Shown here one piece after another: positions 8,552 to 21,880 of a stretch of DNA of 21,880 nucleotides. Source of the stretch: a virus; the IMG/VR virus record IMGVR_UViG_3300020472_000194, positions 1 to 21,880 of that record; one strand, 5' to 3'. The position numbers and the translations under genes are program-made. The notes under the pieces were generated by a model, which saw nothing but the letters and a program-made list of their open reading frames with translations, did not search any database and was not told the DNA's origin. Each line of letters begins with the position of its first letter. Position 1 is the stretch's first letter.

Positions 8552-11500
8552 TTAAATCTCCATTAACCACCAACCTTGTTGTGTTGAAGGAATACCAACT
8601 CCACCACCACTATCTACAGAACCAAGATAAACTAGAGAGAATGCTGCATTTGGTGTTTGTACAACTAGTTCTCCAGAATTATATGAATTAGCAAGGAATC
8701 CACCACCTTCTGCAAGTGTTGTACCAGTAGAATCTCCTTGAACTCTAACACCGACACCAGGAGCACGAACGACTAAAGATGTCTTATGATTCAAGTTTCC
8801 ACCAACATCAACAATCTTAATGACATCACCAGTTGAAACTTCTGCTGGTAGAGTTAATACTAATGTATTATCAATATCAACAGCAGCACAGTAAATAATA
8901 TTTGCCATTAATGTCTTAGCAGCAGGATCAGAACCAGTTGAAACATATCTTGTATGACGACCACCAGTTCTTGTCCAGAAAGGTTCAACACCAAATGCTT
9001 CAATCTCACCAGTATGCTTGATACTGAACTTATCTGATCCATTGTTATTTAGTTTATCAACAGTGAATATTTCACTCTGAGGAGTTGGATTTGTATTAGA
9101 TTCACCTGTTACAGTAAGAGTTAACTTAGCAGATACATTACCAACATTATCAACTACAAATGTAGGATCAACTATACCAGTTGCACTGAAGACCGTTTCA
9201 GGGCAATTCTCTGGGTACATCGTAAGAGCACCCTTAAGAACAACACCTGCATCAAGTTGCAAACTTCCAAGGTGATCAGCATGTCCACCATCATTCTTGA
9301 AGTAGAGCAATCTAGATGAATTAACTGAATCAAATATTTCAATGTCACCACCAATCATATTGATATTGCCACCAATATCAAGATTGCCCTTGTTGTATCC
9401 TAAAGAACCAGATTGTCTCTCATGATTAATAACCGCACTATTAACAGTTCCTTGTAAGTTAGAGTTAAGTAAGAAGAAACTATTATCACCTGTTGTTAGA
9501 TTTTCAAATCTTACATAGTTAACATAATCAATCCTTGTTTGAACTATGTAACCTCTGTTAAGAATAGCAGAAACATATTCAACAGAACCTCTAGTTTTAG
9601 ACTCAAGATCAAGTAATTGAGAAACTTCACTATGTTTCTTAATTACTAATATAGTATCATTAACAGTATAATCACCAGCAGATGCTTTAGTTGTACCTTC
9701 TTGTCCACCATCACAAATAAGTTCTGGGCTAGCACCAGTAGTAATTCCACGTACAATTAATATCTCATGGAATCCTGGATCAACAACAACTGATGACCCA
9801 TCAATCGTTTGTGGTGCAGTATTTGCTGAAGTACCAACAACAAGTAAATCTCCTATTTCAAATGCTGCATTACCTTCACCAACAGACTGTACAGGAATAA
9901 CCCAATCATAGGATGAGTGAGCAGTTACAGCAGCACGAACAGTTGTCTTCTTACCATTATTATCCGTAACAGGATCATACGAATAAGAATATACTGTTAC
10001 TTGATCAGTAATAGTTCCAAATGCAGTTTCTGTCTCAGATGGTGTCTTAACAGATGGATAGAACTCAGATAGCTCAACTCTACGTATATGATTACCAATT
10101 GTAGTATTAGCACTACATGAATCTACATTAAATACTTCTTGCTCATTTCCATTAGTTAATGTAAGAGTTTCATTCTGAGAAATATAGAATCCAACTGTTG
10201 ATATATTAGAACCATACACAGGATTCTTAAGACGTATACTATCTGTCTTAACTTCTGTCACATAGTTGACAGGGAATTCAATGTCAGTGAAATTACCATA
10301 AGTAGGATTATATCTAATTTCATCACCAACAGATACCTTAGCAATATCAGTTGCAGATACGCCACTAATATAATAAGTAGCATCATCACCAGTAATTCTT
10401 ACAAGACTACCAACAATCTCTTCACGTTTGATAGTTCCACAACCACCTTGTAATTTAATAGTTGTGTTAATATTAACAATTGATCCAGGAATATCTGGGT
10501 TACCAATAGTAACTTCACCAGTTACAGAGTCAACCTCAAATACTACCTTGTCTGGTTCACCACAATTAGAAACTGTTAGTTTCTGGTTTACCTGACCAGT
10601 AATCTGATCAATCTTGAGTGCTTCACCAAAATCGTATGTGCCATCCTGATTAGTGTCACTACGTCCAATGATAATGTAGTCATCTGTTGATAGAGTACCA
10701 CCAAACTCAGCAAGATTAACTTGATCTTGTGGTCCAGTATTATCTAAATTATTTTCTGTCCAAGTAGAATCAAACTGTACATTAACCTTGTAAATAGGTG
10801 TTGTGTCTGGATGATCTGAATGGAATCCAGTAAATGTACCAAATGGTTGACGCTTAACTTTTAAGAAGTAAGGAGCAACAGTAGTTCTTGTTAACTCAGT
10901 AATCTGAGCAACTTCTGGGAATATACTATTACCACTAATTCCAGTATCAATGATTATATAATCACCAACTACAAAGTATTGTACGGTAGGATTACCATTG
11001 ATATCATTAGTGATAGGAGCATACTTAAGAGGTAAGTAGTACTCATTAGTACCAGTTAGATCTGGGAATTGTGATATAGTTTCTCCAGCAGGAGTTCCTT
11101 GGAAGTTATAACCACCCCACAATCCAGAACCAGCAGTATCAATCTGATTATACTCACCTACATCAGCAAGTACTTTCTTAATTACATTAAGAATATCTAC
11201 ATTCTTATTAGGATCAACTACTGTATATGGTGGAGTAAGACCATTATCATGAGAACTAATAGTAGTACCTAACTGACCTCTATCACTAATGAATTCAAAA
11301 GCAGAAGTACCACCACATAACCAAATATCACTCAGGAATTTAGCAGAAGCATTAACTTGTAATCTATTATTAATTGTAGTTGTACCACCTTGACCAGCAA
11401 TATTAACATCAGATGCATTAGTAGCAAAGTTAATATTAGAAGGACCACCAGAGTTAGAGAAGAAGTTAACAGTTCCAGCAGGTGTGAATAGATTTACAGA

Positions 11501-14500
11501 CTGTTGATCTGACCTCTGATTTACACCATTTGGCCAACCGCCAATCCATACATCACCATCAGCAATTAATGATTTAGTTCCAATTCTTGTATAAGATTGT
11601 GACTCAGTGCTATCATAAGCACCACCAATAACTATCTTAGAATCAGCAAGAGTTGCTACTGAATTGAGAAGGTAATTGTTAGGTGTTGCACCAATCTTAA
11701 TTTCACTATTATTTGAAAGTCCACCAACTTCAATATGTTGTCCAGATAACTGCTTGTTACCAATCTCAATATTTTGAGCGTAACCAGCCATCTGTAGACC
11801 AGCACCTGTAACAGTCTGTCCTGTATTTGCTATATGAGTACCACTAAATGTGTTACCCATTAAGAAATTAAATGTTCCTGTTGTTATACCTGTCGTTACA
11901 TTAACAGTACTATCTGCATGTCCTGATGGCCATGAACCAATATGAAGATCCTGTTCAACCGAAACATCATCCGTAAATCTACCAGAACCAACAACAACAA
12001 ATGTTTGATCAAGTGTTGTATTTGTTTGAGTGGTATCAAGTGGAGCAGTACCAATGATTGTATTAATACCAACAGCACCAAAAGGAGGAGCAGTAGAGAC
12101 CCTAAGTGTTGCTGAAGTATTTGGATCATAAGCATCACCACCAACTAATAATGCATTGCTAGTACCAAAGTCTGATCTTGTGGATCCATCAGCATTTGCA
12201 ATACCTGTATAATTGTTTAATTGAGAATCGCCAGTATTATAATCATAAGTAACAAATGTTTTACCAGAGATGAATGCAGTACCTACAACATCCAAGTTAG
12301 CACGTGGATTAGTATCAGGATTTACTTGATTCGCCATTCCATTGTCACTAACAAATGCATCTGCATATGCATCATGATCAGCACGAGCAATTGTGTTAAT
12401 ACCAACTCTATAATCACCAGCGATTGCAGTTCTAGTTCTTATAGATTCAGCACCTAATACACCCCACTCTTTCCATGAAGAGTTAGCAAACTGCATTGTT
12501 GCAGTTGGTGAACCAGACCAATCAAATGGATTCTGATTTTGAATGTTAGCTCTATTCTCAACGATAGAGAACTTACATGACTCAGCATCAGGATCAAATC
12601 CAGCAGATATAACTGTCCAAGTTCCATTAAGAGCACTATCAATAAAGTTACCAATCTTAATTTGTGAACCAGGATTTATACCAAGAACTGAGTTCTTAAG
12701 TCCTTCCCATTCAACTGTTACAACCTGTGTACCATTAAATGAGAATCTCTTAATTTGATTCGCACTAATAGCTGTAAAGTAGTTTGCATAGATCCATCCA
12801 AGAGATCCAGACTTACCTACATCGCTACCCTTAAGTAACATGTCACCAGACTTAGGAGCTCCAGCATTACCATACTGAACAATTTGAGTAGCATCAAATG
12901 TTCCCAATTGGTTTGGAGTAATGTTAGAACCTAGTAGACCAACAGCATGGTTCTGAATCTTATATCCTTGAGCAGCACCAGCAGAACCACGTGGGTTAAA
13001 CTGGAATATAGAAGCAGCAATTCTGTTTCTAGCAATAGTAATATGACCAAGAGTATCTTGATTCAAGTACTGTGACTGAGCAGCAAGACTACCATCATCA
13101 CCAGAATTAGGATCAACATCAGATATAATCTTTAATGCAGAATCTCTAACTCTACCAAGAACATTGATAGTTACAGGTGAGTTGAATGTGCTTGTCTTAT
13201 CCTGATTATCACCACCATTAACTGTGATATACTCATTGAATGTAACAGGAGTATCAAAGGTGGTAACTAGACCACCAATATCCTCTTCATCATCATCAGA
13301 ATCAATTAACTGTGCAGACTCTAAGAACTCTTCCTCACCAGTGATAGCATCAATTTTACGGTTACCAATGTATAGGTCACCATTTGAGTTAAGACCAGTG
13401 TAGAATACTAAACCACCATCTTCTTTCTTAGACTGAGCATAGAAATCTTGAATTGGTTCAAGAATAACTTCCTGTCTTTGAGGTAAACCAGTTGAGTAGT
13501 TACCTGGACCAAAACCAAGGTATTCAAACGTATGGTTACCAGCACGAGCAATAGATGGTCTTCGTAGTTCAACATAAACTCTAGAATCAGCAACAACTGT
13601 GCTATCACCAGCAATAGGAATCAAACGATCCTCAGAACCAGATGTAGCATTACCAAGTTGAGCTTTTAATACATTGTTACCAGTGTAAGAATTATTTGTA
13701 AATGCATCAGTAGCAAGTATGTCACTAACACACTCCTTAGTCATTGATCCCTTGAAATCATTAACTGTTACTAAACCATGAGTATAGTTATCAGCAGCAG
13801 ATGATGTAGAAGGAGGATCAACAGCAGCAGGATCTATTTGTCTGAACCAGAAAGGATCATTCTTATAGTTTAATGGATATAGTTTACTGATTGGCTGAGA
13901 GAACTTAAAGTTTCTAAAGTTTCCTTGATTACCAGCACCAGTTGGGAGTGGGGAAATATTACCACGAATAGCAGTTAGATAGTAAATACCAGGTTGCTGT
14001 TTAAATATACGTTTCTGTATTTGCTCAACATCAAAAATATAGAAGTTATCATCAATTTCACCAACATCCTCTACAGATTCAATATAATATTCAACTGGAG
14101 GACTATTCTCTGAAACTATCTTATCACCTGGAGTTAGAGTATAAACTTTAGCTCCACCTTGCTTATAATAGTACTCTGGATATCCCTTACGAATTAAATC
14201 TTTAATTCCATATGACTTACCATAATCCCTATCTGCTAATAGATCAGAGAATACAGTCTGTGTTGATCCAGCTGGAAGATGTTCAAATCTAGTATTCTCT
14301 AATGGATCATAATCAATTGGTTCTTTATTAGTATCAGATACAACACCCTTAAGAATCAAATGCCAGGTATCTGTACCAGGAACATTGAGAGCAGCATGAA
14401 CATAACCATAACCAGAACAATTACCAAACCAAGTAACTTTATTGAATCCATTATCAGAAGGATTATCTATCTTTGCAGTAGGATTAGCAGTGAAAGAACC

Positions 14501-17500
14501 ACCTTGAGGAGCAGTTACTTTAACTGTTACAAACTTCTCATTAATTAATGCAGGTGTACTTGTTAGACTTGGATCATAAGTAGTTAATTCAAGATATGTA
14601 TTACCATCATTAGCATCAACAAAGTATCTACCAGATTGAACATTAAAATCAATATTACTACTTGTCTTTAATGTCTTAGTAAATACCTGTGGACCTACAG
14701 TTGATAATGGTTTTCTATAAGGATTATATTCTATAGAAGAATCATGTCCTGTGATTCCCTTCAAATCATCTTTGGTTGCACCAATCCACTCATGTGCTTG
14801 AGCAGGGTTATAAAACTTAGCTTCAGTAGTACTACCAGAAACAACAGGTCTCAGAACTATTTTCTGTGGTAAAAGTTTTCTTGTAGTATCCTTACGAATC
14901 TTAAGAGTAAATCCATTTAGAGGATCACGTACTGATTGTAAGTACTCAGGTATAACATAACGTAAACGATAGATACGATCATCTGCTTTACGCTCATCCT
15001 TAATTCTTTCAAACCAAGCATCATTTGTCTTCTCAATACCAGAAAGATCATTATATGATTGTTCATGCAATCTTGTTAAGATAGCAAAGTCATGTCCTGG
15101 TGTTGATGAATTTTCTGATTGATTAATTACCTGAATGAACCACTTACCGTAAATTGGTGGAGTTCCAGTATTAGGATTCTCATATACTGGATCATATCTC
15201 AGTGGAGATTCTCTCTTATTAGCAAATACAGAGAATCCATCTTGTGTGCTAGTAGTATCAAAACTTATTGGTTGTTGTCCTGCTATAGCATCAGTTGTAT
15301 TCTTATGAATAGTAAATAGATTCTTATCAATGTATCTTACAAAGTAAGTACGATTTTCTTTTAACTTACTAGAAACAGCAACATCAGTATCTGATTGCCA
15401 TGAAGCACTCAACAATGGTAATGAACCACCTTCATTCTTCTTAAAGAAGACTTCTTGTACTGTTACGTTAGAAGTTGGGATATCAAATATATGTGGAACA
15501 TCTGTTTTAAGAGCACCAAGAGGTACAGCAGAGGTCTCACAAGAATATTGATGGCAATCATAATCTATATCAAGAACAAACTGATAGAGATCTATTTCAA
15601 CATCAGCATCAACAGACTCAACTTCAGCAGAATGAATGTATATACCAGCAGCAGCGTTTTCTTTACTACCAGCTAACATCAACTTAGCTTGATCGCCAAC
15701 TGTAGTTCCAGCAGTAAACCCAAGACTACTAAAGTCTGTTGGTTTTGTAGTTCTACCTGGAGCAATTACATAATATGTTTGGTTGGGTGAAAATCCATTC
15801 GGTAATCTTATCTTACGCTTATCAACTACAACACCATCCTTAGCACGTGGAACTAATCTTACTGGAGTACCAGTTTCAAAGTTATGTGGGTTAGCAGTTA
15901 ATGATGTAGGATCTTTAATAGTCCAAATAGTTCCTCTGTTAGCAAGATCAGAAGAAGAACTTGATGGTTCATTTCTAGGAACAGTATTTAATCCTGTCTG
16001 AATAATAGTACCAATATTAGAGAAGAACTGACGAATCGCAGTTGCTTCATTAGCACACTTAGGATAATTATTATCCTGTAAATTACCAGAGTTATTAAAT
16101 GATGTGTCTGGAGCAGGTGAATATTCACTAGTGTATACACCAGAGTCTAATGTAAAGTATACATAAGAATTTGTTGTTGTTGCATTAGCATTAACAGAAG
16201 GACCAAATGATAATCCCAATGGTGTTTCAGTTCTATCAATACTATCAATATATCCAGGATTTAATATAGCATTCGTTAAAATACCAAATAGCGTAGATAT
16301 TGAACTAGCAACATCCTGACAACGACCAGTAGAATTATTTCTAACAACTGAATCAAGTGATGTTGGTGTTAATACTGTACTTTGTATAATACCAAATAAT
16401 GTATTGATTGATGATCTTACATCCTCACATTTACCAACAGATTCTGTTCTTGTTATTCCACTAAGACTAATTGGATCAACAATAGCATTAGTAACAATAG
16501 AAGAAAGAGTGTTTAGAGAACCTCTTATATCCTCACATTTTGTTACTGACTGTGTACGAGTAACTCCAGTAAGTGAGGAAGGTGTGGAAATAGTAGAAGT
16601 TAATATTTGAACTAAAGATGTAACAGTACTCTTTGCACTATTACATTGGTTATTAGAAACTCCGTCAGTAATTGTAGTATCTTTTACCTGACTATTTGAA
16701 GTATAACCACCAACAGTAACATCAACATTAGTCATTACTTCATGAATAATGTCACGTACTTCATTAAAAGCAGATATAGTTTCATTCTCTGATCCAGCAG
16801 CATGAGCACCAGCAACATACATGTTAGCACAATCCCATACACGATCATTACCACCGTATGCTAAGTTATGTGCAACAACATCTACAACATCCCTAAGATC
16901 ATCAAGACAATCAACAGAAGTATAAGGAGCAGTCCATGTATATGAAGGGTATGCTGCTAACATCCGTCCCAACGCAATATCTGCAATGAAATTTTTATTA
17001 GCAAGTATCAAATTCCTTGCATCAGCTACCTTATTATCTTGCGGAGTATTAGCATTGACAGTTATTGTATTATCATATGCTTGAGTTAGTCCATGATCAC
17101 CAATAACAAGAACTTTCTCTTGTCTCATTACTTGAACCATCATCTCAGTAGCATCAGTTAATGCTGCAACTGTCTGAGTCTCTTCACCAGCAACATGAGC
17201 ACCTGATACATACAGGTTCGCCATATCCCAAACTCTATTATTACCACCAAACGCTAAGTTATATGATACTTCAATAATGAAATCCTCTATGTCATCAATG
17301 CAATCCTGTGCATTACCTGTTGGAGGTAAGAATCCAGGATTTTCAAGGATCATACGTGCATATGCTTCCTTGGCAATAAATGTCTTATTAGACTCAATTA
17401 AATTACGAGCATCACCAGCACGATCAACAGGAGGATCAGCAATATCAGAAGTTATAGGACCATCAGGATTATAATCCTGTGTTAAACCATGCTTACCAAT

Positions 17501-20500
17501 ACACAGAACCTTTTGTCTTCTAACAACTTGAGCAGCCATTTCTCTTGCTTGCTCAAATACAAAATTAGTTTCAGTCTCCTCACCAGCAACGTGAGCACCA
17601 GTCTTATATGAATAAGCAGCATCCCATGTCTTGTCGTTACCACCATAAGCAAGGTTATGTCCTATCGCATCTAAAATATCTACAACATCATCAACACAAT
17701 CTTGATTATGATATGCATTGCTACCACCAACAGAGAATGTCTTATGTACTGAATCTGGTACAGAACTCACCCATTGATGTGAATAATTTCCACCAGTTAT
17801 AACAGCACCTGTTCCACTGTTAGGTACAAAATCATGATCATACTGATCCGCAGGAGCTCCTGCACCAACGTTGATGGTAATAGTACCACTTTGCTTCTCT
17901 ACAGCACCAGCAGCAGATCTCTTGAAGTCATGAATCTGTCTTGGTAAATGCTTAATACTATTAGGATCAGAAGATTTCCATGTATGTGTAGATTCTGGTT
18001 CATATTCAATAGCATCAGTAATTGCTTCCTTGAATGTATGAACATATTGATTGTTTGTATTAGAATCAAATCCAACATTAAATGTGATTGTACCATCTTG
18101 ATGATGAATACCATCAACAAGAGCGTCATCATAACTATGAAGAGAAGTATTACTTGATAATCCAACATTAATAGTAAATGTATCACCAGTAGCATTAGAT
18201 ACCTTCAACCATCTTCCACTTGGATAGTCAAATCCTGCACGTGGATAAGATTTAATAGATACATCTCCATCTAATTCACAAGTAAATTTAAGTGAACCAT
18301 CTGCAATCTTAACATAATCTCCATTCTGGAATCCATGACCACTTGATGTAATAACTAAATTACCATTTGCAGCAGTATAAACAGCATTAGTTGCAGTCTT
18401 AGTATTATATCCTACAGCAGTAATAGCAATAGACTTACCAGCCCAAGGATCAACACCAGCACGAGGATAACTATGCCATGTTTGGTCATTATCTTTAGTG
18501 CAAGTAAAACTAAGAGAATTATCTTTTAATGTAATATTAGATCCAACACGTAACCCATGCTGTCCAACTGTTGCCACCATAACACCAGTAGCAGCATCGT
18601 AAGTAACAGCATCTGGTTTAAAGTATTTGTTATTTCCAGCACTACCTACATTAACAGTAACACTGTCGTCAGTCTTATTGGTTATATGTAAAGATCTTGA
18701 TGAAGCTTGATCTTTACCTGCACGTGGATATGATTTATCAGAATCATTACCATCCATCTCACAACTGAATTTGAGTGAGTTGTTATCAATAACAATACCA
18801 TCACCAACACTTAAACCATGTGTTCCAATATTAAGAACAAGATCTCCACTTACAGGATCATATGATGTACCTGTTCCAGCTGTAAAGTTAACTTCTGCAT
18901 CTGCTTGACCAACATTAACATTAAATGTATTTGGTGTAACATCAGAAATTTCTAACCATTTTCCTGATTTTGGATCAGAAGATCTTGGATATGAATGTTC
19001 TGTTGCATAATTATCCATTGCACAACTAAATGTCAATGAATTATCAGAAATCTTAATCCTATTTCCATTTACAAATCCATGATTATTAATGGTTAAATTT
19101 AAAACACCAGTTGTAGGATCATAAGCAGCATTTGTTGGCTTATAGAATGAAGATCCAACATCCTTAATCTCTAAACCTGTTTGATAAGCAGGGTCAGTTG
19201 AACGTGGATATGATTCTGTGCTAGTATAAGAGTCCTTAGAACACTTGAATGATAACCCACCATCTGCTAATCTAATAGTAGATCCTTTAACAAGATCGTG
19301 ATCATTAATAGTTAATACAATATCACCTGTTACCTGATTGTAATTTGCATCAGTAACATCATATGATGTTTGTAACGTCTTACCTACATTCACCACTACA
19401 TCATCTTGAGATGCAAAAATAACAGGAAGAACTTCACTAGCAGCAGGATCACTTACACGAGGATACTTGTGTTCTGTTGCATAATTATCCATTGCACAAG
19501 TAAATGTCAATGCATCAAAGTCTATTCTTATGCTATCCTGTGCTCTGAAGAATGTAGGACTTGCTGCTTGATCATATTCATGTAAATAATTACCACCAGC
19601 AATAACTGCACCAGTTGCAGATGCTAAATTAGGAACAAATGTATGAGCATAGTGATTAGCAACATCAGCATCAAATCCAACATTAATTGTAATTGTGGTT
19701 GAAGTTACAGAATCAATGTTAATTGCTGTATTAAAGAATGGATCTGTTGTTCTTGGATAAGCATGATTAGACTGATCACTATCCTTACTACAAGTAAATG
19801 TCAATGACTCCTGAGCAAGCTTAATACTAGTACCAGCACTCAATCCATGATTACCAATCGTCAAGGTCATTACACCTGTTGCTGCATTATAATCAGCAGT
19901 AGTTGGTGTAAATGATACAATAGGAGTAGATCCAACATGAACATCAAATGTACTTTGCTGTACGTTAGTAATCTCTAACCACTTACCACTTACAGGATCA
20001 GAAGCTCTTGGATACTTCTTAACAGAAGTCTTATTATCCATAGAACACTTAAACCATAAAGCCTCATCTTGTATTTGAATCTTCTCACCAGACTTCATTC
20101 CATGATTATTTTTGGTGAGTGTTAGAATACCAGTTGTAGGATCATAAGCAGCATTAGTTACAGAAACTGAAGTAGATGCTGATAAACCATTATTAGGTAT
20201 CTTAAGATTCAATACTCCAGTTGAAGGATCATATGTGGTTCCAGTAATAGGAGTAAATGATTGAGTTGATGATTGAACAACCATCCTCTCCACTGCTTCA
20301 TGTGCAATAAGATTCTTGTTAGCAGCAATTAATTTCTGAGCATCACCACCTCTATCTGATACAACATCAACATTATCTTCATTGATATTTGTAAGTTGTG
20401 GACTAGCAATAGGTTGAGAAAGACCAGATGTTGTCTTTGTTTGTGTTAATCCATGAGTACCATAGATGAATACATCTTCCTTACGCATGACCTGAATAGC

Positions 20501-21880
20501 CATGTCTTTAACATACTCATAAGCACGAGCAGTTTCAGTTCTACTTGTTGAGATATGAAGAACTTCTCCACTCTCATAATAGTAAGATATATCCCATGTC
20601 TCAGCATTACCACCAAATGCTACATCACTAGCAATCTTATGAACAGCTTTTACTAAATCATCCTTACACTTAGCAGGTGTGTAATTAGCGGCTGGTGATG
20701 TATATCCAGGAAAATCAAGAAGCATTCTTTCGTATGCTTCAGCAGCAATAAAATCTTTATTAGATTCAATTAAGTTAGCAGCGTCACCATGTTTGACAGA
20801 TACAACTTTCTTTTCTGAGTATGTTGCTTTCTGACCCAACTCTATATTAGTTGAGTCAATAATTCTTTTAACAAATGTGTTGTTAGGTATAGCAGGTGCT
20901 GCTGGTCTTACAGCGTTAGAATTTATATAACCATTAGTGAAACTATTAGTCTCATAATCAGCTACAGTCATACCTGGAACAATACCACTAGTATCTCCTA
21001 CATTAACGATAGCAGAACCAGTAGTAGTAGATACACTAGTACGAAGATATGAGAAATTACGTGCAGATGCAATTGCAAGATCTCTAGCATAGTAATAACC
21101 TTCTAGAGTCTCTGTTAATTCTTCAGTAATATAAGATAAGTTAGTACCAACAAAATAAGATTCAGCAGCCTGAATTGTATTAATATTACCACCCAGTCTT
21201 AAATCCTGTACTGTAGCATCTATTAAATATCCAATATCTCTGCGACACTTCTCAATAGTAATATTCTCATTAATTGTTATATTTGGATACTTAGAAGTAA
21301 TATACCCATAAGCTTCATAAGCAATAAAGTTCTTATTAGCTTCAATTAAGTTAGCAGCATCAAGACTACCATTACTTACTATATTTCCACCAGAAGGAGT
21401 TAATATACTAGGTGCAGCAACATATCTCTTAAATCCACTAGGACTTATAGTTGCATTAAATTCATTACTTTGACCAGCACTTCTTGGAGTAAGTTTTACA
21501 TATAACTTATCATCCTTCTTAGAACCTAAACGATATCCTTCAATAGATGCAGCAGGACGTTTACCAGGATCATATGCTAAATCATCACCAAGGAATATTT
21601 GAGTATGATTTGCTTGATCATTAGATGCTTGTACATCTAAAGTATAATAAGGAACTTTTGATGTGTTGCCAGTAGTTTCAGGTACAACCTGTGGAGGAAT
21701 AATATCTGTAACGAATCCACCCTTATCTTGGTTGAATGCAAAACCTTTATGACCGATAGCATGGAGTGATGTATTACCAAAGTTACTGTTAGAGTTGGTG
21801 ATACTCATGTCACCACCACTTTCCATTAGGAAGTGATCAGCGAAACCAACAGCGAAGATACTAACACACTGAATGAATGC
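8552..21880 (-). CDS. Giant fibre-like virion structural protein, 5' end beyond the right window edge
   Basis: At least 4442 codons. The frame is open to base 21880 with no stop, and the upstream residues (AFIQCVSIFAVGFADHFL) run smoothly into MESGGDMSITNSNSNFGNTS. The ATGs at 21826 and 21808 have no good ribosome site, so neither is likely the true start. From the N-terminus: a conserved fibre segment (GYRLGSKKDDKLYVKLTP); five ~105-118-aa helical units (21372-16700), the third split by a block with eight YDPTTG/YPR repeats (20270-17730); four exact 36-aa repeats (16645-16214); a long beta-rich region I do not recognise; an acidic patch (DSDDDEED, about 13280-13303); shaft-like modules (VTTFDTPVTFNEYITVNGG); and a tip region (8980-8552) with GDVIKIVDVGGN, GELVVQTPNAAFSLVYLG and GWWLMEI. 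No S74-type intramolecular chaperone is seen. Likely a long tail fibre or other virion fibre of a T4-like cyanophage; placement is inference. Confidence 0.93.
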   Translation of the reverse strand, partial: AFIQCVSIFAVGFADHFLMESGGDMSITNSNSNFGNTSLHAIGHKGFAFNQDKGGFVTDIIPPQVVPETTGNTSKVPYYTLDVQASNDQANHTQIFLGDDLAYDPGKRPAASIEGYRLGSKKDDKLYVKLTPRSAGQSNEFNATISPSGFKRYVAAPSILTPSGGNIVSNGSLDAANLIEANKNFIAYEAYGYITSKYPNITINENITIEKCRRDIGYLIDATVQDLRLGGNINTIQAAESYFVGTNLSYITEELTETLEGYYYARDLAIASARNFSYLRTSVSTTTGSAIVNVGDTSGIVPGMTVADYETNSFTNGYINSNAVRPAAPAIPNNTFVKRIIDSTNIELGQKATYSEKKVVSVKHGDAANLIESNKDFIAAEAYERMLLDFPGYTSPAANYTPAKCKDDLVKAVHKIASDVAFGGNAETWDISYYYESGEVLHISTSRTETARAYEYVKDMAIQVMRKEDVFIYGTHGLTQTKTTSGLSQPIASPQLTNINEDNVDVVSDRGGDAQKLIAANKNLIAHEAVERMVVQSSTQSFTPITGTTYDPSTGVLNLKIPNNGLSASTSVSVTNAAYDPTTGILTLTKNNHGMKSGEKIQIQDEALWFKCSMDNKTSVKKYPRASDPVSGKWLEITNVQQSTFDVHVGSTPIVSFTPTTADYNAATGVMTLTIGNHGLSAGTSIKLAQESLTFTCSKDSDQSNHAYPRTTDPFFNTAINIDSVTSTTITINVGFDADVANHYAHTFVPNLASATGAVIAGGNYLHEYDQAASPTFFRAQDSIRIDFDALTFTCAMDNYATEHKYPRVSDPAASEVLPVIFASQDDVVVNVGKTLQTSYDVTDANYNQVTGDIVLTINDHDLVKGSTIRLADGGLSFKCSKDSYTSTESYPRSTDPAYQTGLEIKDVGSSFYKPTNAAYDPTTGVLNLTINNHGFVNGNRIKISDNSLTFSCAMDNYATEHSYPRSSDPKSGKWLEISDVTPNTFNVNVGQADAEVNFTAGTGTSYDPVSGDLVLNIGTHGLSVGDGIVIDNNSLKFSCEMDGNDSDKSYPRAGKDQASSRSLHITNKTDDSVTVNVGSAGNNKYFKPDAVTYDAATGVMVATVGQHGLRVGSNITLKDNSLSFTCTKDNDQTWHSYPRAGVDPWAGKSIAITAVGYNTKTATNAVYTAANGNLVITSSGHGFQNGDYVKIADGSLKFTCELDGDVSIKSYPRAGFDYPSGRWLKVSNATGDTFTINVGLSSNTSLHSYDDALVDGIHHQDGTITFNVGFDSNTNNQYVHTFKEAITDAIEYEPESTHTWKSSDPNSIKHLPRQIHDFKRSAAGAVEKQSGTITINVGAGAPADQYDHDFVPNSGTGAVITGGNYSHQWVSSVPDSVHKTFSVGGSNAYHNQDCVDDVVDILDAIGHNLAYGGNDKTWDAAYSYKTGAHVAGEETETNFVFEQAREMAAQVVRRQKVLCIGKHGLTQDYNPDGPITSDIADPPVDRAGDARNLIESNKTFIAKEAYARMILENPGFLPPTGNAQDCIDDIEDFIIEVSYNLAFGGNNRVWDMANLYVSGAHVAGEETQTVAALTDATEMMVQVMRQEKVLVIGDHGLTQAYDNTITVNANTPQDNKVADARNLILANKNFIADIALGRMLAAYPSYTWTAPYTSVDCLDDLRDVVDVVAHNLAYGGNDRVWDCANMYVAGAHAAGSENETISAFNEVRDIIHEVMTNVDVTVGGYTSNSQVKDTTITDGVSNNQCNSAKSTVTSLVQILTSTISTPSSLTGVTRTQSVTKCEDIRGSLNTLSSIVTNAIVDPISLSGITRTESVGKCEDVRSSINTLFGIIQSTVLTPTSLDSVVRNNSTGRCQDVASSISTLFGILTNAILNPGYIDSIDRTETPLGLSFGPSVNANATTTNSYVYFTLDSGVYTSEYSPAPDTSFNNSGNLQDNNYPKCANEATAIRQFFSNIGTIIQTGLNTVPRNEPSSSSSDLANRGTIWTIKDPTSLTANPHNFETGTPVRLVPRAKDGVVVDKRKIRLPNGFSPNQTYYVIAPGRTTKPTDFSSLGFTAGTTVGDQAKLMLAGSKENAAAGIYIHSAEVESVDADVEIDLYQFVLDIDYDCHQYSCETSAVPLGALKTDVPHIFDIPTSNVTVQEVFFKKNEGGSLPLLSASWQSDTDVAVSSKLKENRTYFVRYIDKNLFTIHKNTTDAIAGQQPISFDTTSTQDGFSVFANKRESPLRYDPVYENPNTGTPPIYGKWFIQVINQSENSSTPGHDFAILTRLHEQSYNDLSGIEKTNDAWFERIKDERKADDRIYRLRYVIPEYLQSVRDPLNGFTLKIRKDTTRKLLPQKIVLRPVVSGSTTEAKFYNPAQAHEWIGATKDDLKGITGHDSSIEYNPYRKPLSTVGPQVFTKTLKTSSNIDFNVQSGRYFVDANDGNTYLELTTYDPSLTSTPALINEKFVTVKVTAPQGGSFTANPTAKIDNPSDNGFNKVTWFGNCSGYGYVHAALNVPGTDTWHLILKGVVSDTNKEPIDYDPLENTRFEHLPAGSTQTVFSDLLADRDYGKSYGIKDLIRKGYPEYYYKQGGAKVYTLTPGDKIVSENSPPVEYYIESVEDVGEIDDNFYIFDVEQIQKRIFKQQPGIYYLTAIRGNISPLPTGAGNQGNFRNFKFSQPISKLYPLNYKNDPFWFRQIDPAAVDPPSTSSAADNYTHGLVTVNDFKGSMTKECVSDILATDAFTNNSYTGNNVLKAQLGNATSGSEDRLIPIAGDSTVVADSRVYVELRRPSIARAGNHTFEYLGFGPGNYSTGLPQRQEVILEPIQDFYAQSKKEDGGLVFYTGLNSNGDLYIGNRKIDAITGEEEFLESAQLIDSDDDEEDIGGLVTTFDTPVTFNEYITVNGGDNQDKTSTFNSPVTINVLGRVRDSALKIISDVDPNSGDDGSLAAQSQYLNQDTLGHITIARNRIAASIFQFNPRGSAGAAQGYKIQNHAVGLLGSNITPNQLGTFDATQIVQYGNAGAPKSGDMLLKGSDVGKSGSLGWIYANYFTAISANQIKRFSFNGTQVVTVEWEGLKNSVLGINPGSQIKIGNFIDSALNGTWTVISAGFDPDAESCKFSIVENRANIQNQNPFDWSGSPTATMQFANSSWKEWGVLGAESIRTRTAIAGDYRVGINTIARADHDAYADAFVSDNGMANQVNPDTNPRANLDVVGTAFISGKTFVTYDYNTGDSQLNNYTGIANADGSTRSDFGTSNALLVGGDAYDPNTSATLRVSTAPPFGAVGINTIIGTAPLDTTQTNTTLDQTFVVVGSGRFTDDVSVEQDLHIGSWPSGHADSTVNVTTGITTGTFNFLMGNTFSGTHIANTGQTVTGAGLQMAGYAQNIEIGNKQLSGQHIEVGGLSNNSEIKIGATPNNYLLNSVATLADSKIVIGGAYDSTESQSYTRIGTKSLIADGDVWIGGWPNGVNQRSDQQSVNLFTPAGTVNFFSNSGGPSNINFATNASDVNIAGQGGTTTINNRLQVNASAKFLSDIWLCGGTSAFEFISDRGQLGTTISSHDNGLTPPYTVVDPNKNVDILNVIKKVLADVGEYNQIDTAGSGLWGGYNFQGTPAGETISQFPDLTGTNEYYLPLKYAPITNDINGNPTVQYFVVGDYIIIDTGISGNSIFPEVAQITELTRTTVAPYFLKVKRQPFGTFTGFHSDHPDTTPIYKVNVQFDSTWTENNLDNTGPQDQVNLAEFGGTLSTDDYIIIGRSDTNQDGTYDFGEALKIDQITGQVNQKLTVSNCGEPDKVVFEVDSVTGEVTIGNPDIPGSIVNINTTIKLQGGCGTIKREEIVGSLVRITGDDATYYISGVSATDIAKVSVGDEIRYNPTYGNFTDIEFPVNYVTEVKTDSIRLKNPVYGSNISTVGFYISQNETLTLTNGNEQEVFNVDSCSANTTIGNHIRRVELSEFYPSVKTPSETETAFGTITDQVTVYSYSYDPVTDNNGKKTTVRAAVTAHSSYDWVIPVQSVGEGNAAFEIGDLLVVGTSANTAPQTIDGSSVVVDPGFHEILIVRGITTGASPELICDGGQEGTTKASAGDYTVNDTILVIKKHSEVSQLLDLESKTRGSVEYVSAILNRGYIVQTRIDYVNYVRFENLTTGDNSFFLLNSNLQGTVNSAVINHERQSGSLGYNKGNLDIGGNINMIGGDIEIFDSVNSSRLLYFKNDGGHADHLGSLQLDAGVVLKGALTMYPENCPETVFSATGIVDPTFVVDNVGNVSAKLTLTVTGESNTNPTPQSEIFTVDKLNNNGSDKFSIKHTGEIEAFGVEPFWTRTGGRHTRYVSTGSDPAAKTLMANIIYCAAVDIDNTLVLTLPAEVSTGDVIKIVDVGGNLNHKTSLVVRAPGVGVRVQGDSTGTTLAEGGGFLANSYNSGELVVQTPNAAFSLVYLGSVDSGGGVGIPSTQQGWWLMEI
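8558..8561 (-). promoter_or_regulatory. Ribosome binding site embedded in the end of the giant gene
   Basis: GGAG sits 9 nt upstream of the ATG at 8548 and forms part of the Met-Glu codons of the giant protein's C-terminal WWLMEI. It confirms the start of the 441-aa gene and ties its translation to ribosomes finishing the giant gene. Confidence 0.8.
11470..11955 (-). repeat. Duplicated WPxG beta module in the giant protein
   Basis: DLHIGSWPSG (near 11932) and DVWIGGWPNG (near 11532) are each followed, after a similar gap, by a VN strand and an NF strand (TVNVTTGITTGTFNF; SVNLFTPAGTVNFF). Between them lie several shorter IEIG, IEVGG, IKIG and IVIGG strands. The spacing suggests a module of about 130 residues that was duplicated in the fibre shaft. 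Confidence 0.6.
16214..16645 (-). repeat. Four exact 108-nt (36-aa) tandem repeats
   Basis: Cys codons recur at 16645, 16537, 16429 and 16321, exactly 108 nt apart. Units read C-E/Q/N-D/S, a helix such as VRSSINTLFGIIQ, then PxSLxGVxRTxSV. The first unit starts QCNSAKSTVTSLVQILTSTI and the last ends with an altered tail (DSIDRTETPLG). A fifth, degenerate copy with KCANEATAIRQFFSNIGTII begins near 16057, after about 52 extra residues. They probably form repeating helical hairpins or a coiled stalk; that is inference. Confidence 0.88.
16700..17033 (-). repeat. Helical GGN repeat unit e
   Basis: Last copy: ADARNLILANKNFIADIALG, DCLDDLRDVVDVVAHNLAYG, GGNDRVWDCANMYVAGAHAA, then a diverged end (DVTVGGYTSN) in place of HGLTQ. 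It leads directly into the 36-aa repeat array. Confidence 0.8.
17078..17421 (-). repeat. Helical GGN repeat unit d
   Basis: Complete copy: GDARNLIESNKTFIAKEAYA, DCIDDIEDFIIEVSYNLAFG, GGNNRVWDMANLYVSGAHVA, MMVQVMRQEKVLVIG and HGLTQ. About 115 residues, and close to unit c when that is rejoined. Confidence 0.82.
17476..17718 (-). repeat. C-terminal fragment of GGN repeat unit c
   Basis: It encodes DCVDDVVDILDAIGHNLAYG, GGNDKTWD, GAHVAGEETET, a MAAQVVRRQKVLCI helix and HGLTQ. It aligns with the second part of units b, d and e and completes the fragment at 20275-20350. Confidence 0.8.
18996..19038. repeat. 43-bp direct repeat, copy 1
   Basis: The first 30 bases (18996-19025) are identical to 19470-19499. 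After one mismatch the next 12 bases match as well. The segment encodes the core CAMDNYATEH of one YPR repeat unit, and identity at the DNA level suggests recent duplication or exchange. Confidence 0.85.
19106..19132. repeat. 27-bp direct repeat, copy 1
   Basis: Identical to 20129-20155. It encodes the NAAYDPTTG start of a beta repeat unit, and the two copies are 1023 nt apart, a multiple of three. Confidence 0.8.
19470..19512. repeat. 43-bp direct repeat, copy 2
   Basis: Matches 18996-19038 at all but one base and lies 474 nt away, again in the YPR core of a repeat unit. Recombination between the copies would remove 474 nt (158 codons) without shifting the frame. Confidence 0.85.
20129..20155. 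repeat. 27-bp direct repeat, copy 2
   Basis: Identical to 19106-19132 and at the same position within another repeat unit. Exchange between the copies would keep the reading frame. Confidence 0.8.
20275..20350 (-). repeat. N-terminal fragment of GGN repeat unit c
   Basis: It encodes GDAQKLIAANKNLIAHEAVE and RMVV, the start of a GGN unit. The expected Cys-Asp-Asp helix does not follow. Instead the frame enters the YDP repeat block, and the rest of the unit appears about 850 residues later at 17718. Confidence 0.8.
20443..20795 (-). repeat. Helical GGN repeat unit b
   Basis: Second copy: GDAANLIESNKDFIAAEAYE, KCKDDLVKAVHKIASDVAFG, GGNAETWD, an MAIQVMRKEDVFI helix, and HGLTQ at its end. It is complete and about 117 residues long. 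Confidence 0.8.
21052..21372 (-). repeat. Helical GGN repeat unit a (divergent)
   Basis: First copy of the ~105-118-aa unit: DAANLIEANKNFIAYEAYGY, then EKCRRDIGYLIDATVQDLRLGGN, then a YARDLAIASARN helix. It keeps the Asn-Lys-x-Phe-Ile-Ala start, the Cys before Asp, and Gly-Gly-Asn, but lacks the later Gly-Ala-His and HGLTQ motifs. Confidence 0.75.

Follow-up and report, generated by a model that had tools for sequence, protein, structure and literature searches.

Two described systems bear on the locus analysed here. The PB domain of ApcE is interrupted at residues 81-136 by 55 inserted residues; the insertion lies upstream of Ser153, the residue aligned with Cys81 (PMC5436742). In cyanophages, T4-GC969 is a protein family that was detected in S-SM1 and classed as a structural protein of the virion (PMC3037559). 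We find that this family, of which Syn19_088 is a member, bears the helical unit that is the subject of this paper. A search of the open-licence literature returned no description of cyanophage tail proteins with domains that resemble phycobilisome proteins or phycobiliproteins.

The window, by which we mean the whole 21,880-base virus record, has as its main gene a minus-strand reading frame of 4424 aa (8552-21826) for a cyanomyovirus short tail fibre or tail protein. The PHROG 4527 short tail fiber profile matches residues 1592-4424 (E = 0), and the gene order is common to the window and five Synechococcus phages (S-WAM2, S-CAM4, ACG-2014i, Sf-CH11 and Sf-CH1b), in which the tail gene has a CpeT/tRNA cluster upstream and genes of the short tail fibre and collar downstream. 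Judged by both profile and gene order, we assign the product to the short-tail-fibre proteins of T4-like cyanophages; the window virus is a phage of ocean cyanobacteria. Downstream of the tail genes, at 743-1654 on the minus strand, lies a homologue of a tail-fibre assembly chaperone (PHROG 4697/4912).

The helical units of this protein and the block between two of them are encoded, like the whole gene, on the minus strand, and the order of units within the window's family is a, b, c, d, e. Our unit profile was built from the four units that are intact in the window, namely a (residues 156-262, 21041-21361), with a CRRD motif at C194, b (348-462, 20441-20785), d (1472-1582, 17081-17413) and e (1602-1710, 16697-17023); it matches a, b and e at E 9e-47, 8e-55 and 6e-54, and d is documented by the AlphaFold and Foldseek results given below. 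The original prediction held that unit c is split into two halves by an in-frame block of about 850 residues with eight beta repeats, and our searches bear out the split, the open frame and the repeats alike. In residues 495-536 the profile matches through its positions 1-25 alone (E 7e-6), and in residues 1361-1450 through positions 32-109 alone (E 2.5e-25). The positions first given for unit c were nearly right and needed a small shift: the N-half (residues 495-518) runs from nt 20344 to 20273, and the C-half (residues 1375-1450, with Cys1377 in a CVDD motif) starts at 17704, with its Cys codon at 17698, rather than at 17718, and ends at 17477.

Between the halves the reading frame is open throughout for ~856 aa (residues 519-1374, 17705-20272). 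One partial beta repeat at residues 518-555 stands ahead of eight full ones (547-1226, 18149-20188), each of which is found by a beta HMM at E 2e-27 to 8e-43; the repeats share a mean pairwise identity of 35%, and of the ~856 inserted residues the eight full ones make up about 680. They are followed by a degenerate beta-rich tail of ~148 residues (1227-1374, 17705-18148), and most split relatives have a similar stretch of ~135-160 aa after their last beta repeat.

What is the helical unit? When the whole 4424-aa protein is searched against Pfam, the only family found is PF00502, Phycobilisome (E 1.1e-10; 42.1 bits against a cut-off of 22.2), which matches three window units in one register. 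Taken alone, unit a gives E 0.006 and unit b E 9e-5 (profile 33-140, 22.9 bits for the same cut-off of 22.2); over 19 units, PF00502 reaches E<0.1 in nine, and no competing family recurs. A profile of 70 units, searched against all PDB sequences, has phycobiliproteins as essentially all of its best 60 matches (best E 1.7e-5) and aligns to residues 39-103 of phycobiliproteins, the bilin cysteine falling in register. The AlphaFold model of unit d, made from 67 aligned units, has a pLDDT of 92.2 and a pTM of 0.86 and shows the globin-like helical fold expected of PF00502; in a Foldseek search of the PDB its ranks 1-14 are all phycobiliproteins, with probability 1.00 and TMq 0.56-0.78. The N-terminal X/Y helical hairpin of phycobiliproteins was looked for and not found, the unit starting at phycobiliprotein residue 39-40. 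Over 207 units, the position of Cys84 is Cys in 96% and that of Asp87 is Asp in 99%, and Arg86 is kept in 36% (Asp in 60%); within the window, CxRD occurs in unit a only.

Together, profiles and models identify the helical unit as a phycobiliprotein-fold domain. The original prediction included neither this likeness nor the whole units nested in the same loop of relatives. Could the likeness instead reflect the convergence of short amphipathic helices? The single E-values are modest, as this would have it (1e-5 in the PDB sequence search, 0.01 in Foldseek). However, the best sequence matches and all 14 of the top fold matches fall on one family in one register, with the Cys and the Asp aligned, and among 14 control genomes PF00502 has a match in Synechococcus elongatus only, so that we think convergence very unlikely. 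PF00502 also matches 20 of the 24 unit-bearing phage records, and in GenBank the phage records with the unit (381 for the type-a unit and 151 for type-e) are cyanophages only, plus one 'Marine' record. A search of host genomes for the unit returned only three MAG contigs, probably viral; they come from Planctomycetaceae, Rhodobacteraceae and Proteobacteria bins (L171, L172 and L173) and are probably misbinned cyanophage contigs.

We decoded N-halves, C-halves and beta repeats in 167 large reading frames, most of which come from viral contigs. Relatives with an uninterrupted unit c had been named beforehand as the thing to look for, and 18 distinct orthologues, L017 among them, lack the block, so that it is not universal; unit c is split in 31 relatives, the window included, with 9-26 beta repeats and a block of 847-2630 aa. 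The loop is short in the 18 intact c units, which have the residues specific to c (EAVERM, GGNDKTWDAAYSY). Since these residues are common to intact and split c, we are dealing with the same, orthologous unit, and since intact c keeps them, it did not arise by replacement with a d copy. When split and intact c are aligned there is a single clean gap, 517-1358, which begins after ERML, and the block replaces or displaces a short YPxFTVxGGN loop. In the split relatives the halves of c are conserved on par with the neighbouring intact units (mean identity 0.80 for the N-half and 0.75 for the C-half), N9 and I13 of the N-half being 100% conserved. A different placement of beta repeats is seen at L125:8624-10351, where three of them lie between units c and d, not within c.

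The direction of the change was read from trees of units a and b only (329-332 columns), with unit c excluded. On the unrooted tree the distribution of intact and split c needs one change (100/99), and taken by itself this tree would permit the split to be ancestral, with the block lost from the intact relatives. When the tree is rooted with other families, which are divergent outgroups (support is below 95 on some basal branches), the split rows form a single derived clade (100/97) and the intact rows are paraphyletic, their monophyly being rejected (AU p=0.018). This argues for a single insertion and not for an ancestral state. Moreover, none of the relatives examined in the window's family has a split in any sister unit, and the c-specific residues of intact c leave no room for its restoration from a d copy; we therefore find an ancestral split hardly credible. 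Orthologues lacking the insert exist, and the insert appears as the derived state within an ancestral host unit. The proposal that the array entered a loop between two helices is thus strongly supported by intact orthologues, a clean gap, a single derived event and a site in a loop of the unit that is variable by nature.

Aligned with the phycobiliprotein fold, the insertion site in c is assigned to the loop between helices B and E, before the bilin-cysteine position. In relatives the B-E loop also holds whole copies of the unit, in nests 2-4 deep (L009, L010, L011, L014, L160 and L048-type loci) that lie within a further split type-a unit. The counts of N- and C-halves at these loci are mostly balanced, in the manner of brackets. 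When a three-deep nest is aligned with a two-deep one, the extra complete unit falls exactly between N2 and C2, and half-by-half scores concur; L061:741-2207 is one nest three deep. The outermost N-half and the last C-half of the nests both match a unit that is uninterrupted in Sf-CH1b (L014), in nests two deep (L010 and L011) as well as four deep (L009 and L160), and in five proteins a type-a unit supplies the first N-half and the last C-half, the distance between them ranging from hundreds of residues to over a thousand. We considered whether NNNCCC could consist of sequentially paired halves and rejected this, because the extra pair of the three-deep nest is the third N with the first C and because a single uninterrupted unit accounts for both the outermost N and the last C. 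The nestings read from these alignments are evolutionary ones. At seven loci (L034, L036, L103, L124, L008, L093 and L170) beta repeats have entered another loop as well, which follows helix F in the C-half. The B-E loop is a general, recurrent port for inserts in these tail proteins.

A local helix of the form CANVRSTIxTLxxIVTxAIxxGxLxxLP stands before every displaced C-half of CxRD type in the nested relatives. Helices of the same kind occur in the window after unit e, where 16217-16693 holds four in tandem of ~39 aa each (KCEDVRSSINTLFGIIxxxIxxPxSL).

Do the halves of c still pack together? In the AlphaFold model of residues 480-1590 (1111 aa), for which intact unit d was the control, the N-half forms one helix (491-518), the block is all beta and the C-half forms three helices; the pTM is 0.47, and the helices of c have a moderate pLDDT of 56-77. 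A Foldseek search with the whole model is dominated by the beta domains and uninformative about unit c, and the first matches of the block model are receptor ectodomains and fibronectin fragments. A covariation test of the pairing of nested halves gave 7 of 16.

We consider it probable that a phycobiliprotein-fold unit c received one beta array in its B-E loop, once, and that its halves still pack. The starting point is a family in which unit c, with the phycobiliprotein fold, was intact within a cyanophage tail-fibre protein; in one lineage a single beta-repeat array then entered the loop that joins helix B, the first of the unit, to helix E, which bears the Cys, and its size has since varied between 9 and 26 repeats. 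The N- and C-halves would still meet, so that the array may leave the helical stalk as a side branch. Such packing is geometrically demanding, since both ends of a chain of 9-26 domains must reach one loop, which is awkward in an extended fibre. An alternative that avoids this difficulty is that the halves no longer fold together: the N-half would be a free helix capping the end of b, the C-half would serve d as a start-helix bundle, and the beta array would join the two in linear order. In the nested relatives the local CANV-type helix could indeed substitute for the distant N-half. However, no such substitute helix precedes the C-half in the window's block, the N-half retains its unit-specific conservation at N9 and I13, and the homologous domain of ApcE tolerates a loop insertion (PMC5436742); separately folded halves are possible in our judgement, though doubtful. 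The role of the protein is most likely structural, with the phycobiliprotein-like units as a helical stalk and the beta arrays as a source of additional bulk, length or binding surface.

The conserved cysteine raises a further question, namely whether the units covalently bind bilin at this position and are loaded in the infected cell, which would make the tail coloured or light-responsive. The Cys and Asp stand in register with Cys84 and Asp87, as described above, and among 24 named phages 11 have both unit and CpeT, three have the unit without CpeT, ten lack both and none has CpeT without the unit; a Fisher test on the T4-like cyanophages, uncorrected for kinship, gives p 0.005, and the co-occurrence is confounded by phylogeny. 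Syn9 and S-PM2 are phages with the units, and P-SSM2 has neither unit nor cpeT. With the Pfam profile, CpeT is found in 14 of 15 other unit-bearing records; tblastn finds it in 71 records against 381 with the unit, an undercount of divergent CpeT that gives a different picture from the profile. In five phages (L008, L009, L010, L011 and L014) cpeT, a T-type bilin lyase gene, lies directly upstream of the giant tail gene, and the roles of phage pebS, pcyA and cpeT have been called a mystery or unresolved (PMC3037559). That cpeT tracks the unit across cyanophages is suggestive, and bilin binding by the tail is therefore a testable reading. Nevertheless, we think it unlikely, since Arg86 is replaced by Asp in most units, T-type lyases are reported to serve Cys-153 and not Cys-84 (PMC10452541), the unit has no N-terminal X/Y helices and a bilin reductase occurs in just one of the 15 records. 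Adsorption is light-dependent in some cyanophages (PMC9229316), which offers only a lead in this respect. If phage or host lyases loaded bilins onto the tails, the bilin genes of phages, so far unexplained, would have a purpose, even in hosts without phycobilisomes.

More generally, the window provides a presence/absence case on a tree, in which a virus tail appears to have gained a whole 850-residue array by one insertion into one loop, and for which the intact relatives can serve as controls. For a large and mostly unannotated class of cyanophage structural proteins, the helical unit can now be named phycobiliprotein-like, and one loop of this fold serves repeatedly as a port, which admits even copies of the unit itself, in nests 2-4 deep. 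The old puzzle of why cyanophages carry cpeT and bilin genes becomes a question for the bench: is there bilin on the virion?

How does the locus compare with known systems? With the phycobiliproteins (phycocyanin and phycoerythrin, alpha and beta) the unit shares the helical core from mid helix A/B through E, F and G/H, the register of Cys84 and Asp87 and, in intact units, the position of the loop; the units differ in standing in tandem within a virion protein of more than 4000 aa, in lacking the X/Y hairpin and in often having Asp for Arg86. In ApcE (LCM) the phycobilin domain is likewise interrupted upstream of the Cys84-equivalent position; however, its PB-loop is ~55 residues long and largely disordered, whereas the split c units hold 847-2630 residues of folded beta repeats. 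The block model resembles the FnIII/Ig-like beta-bead ectodomains in being a chain of small beta domains, with TM-scores that are very low because the chain is flexible. With the T4-like cyanophage short tail fibre, as in S-WAM2, Sf-CH11 and S-CAM4, the window agrees in the gene and its neighbours, while the layout of units and arrays in these tail proteins varies from family to family.
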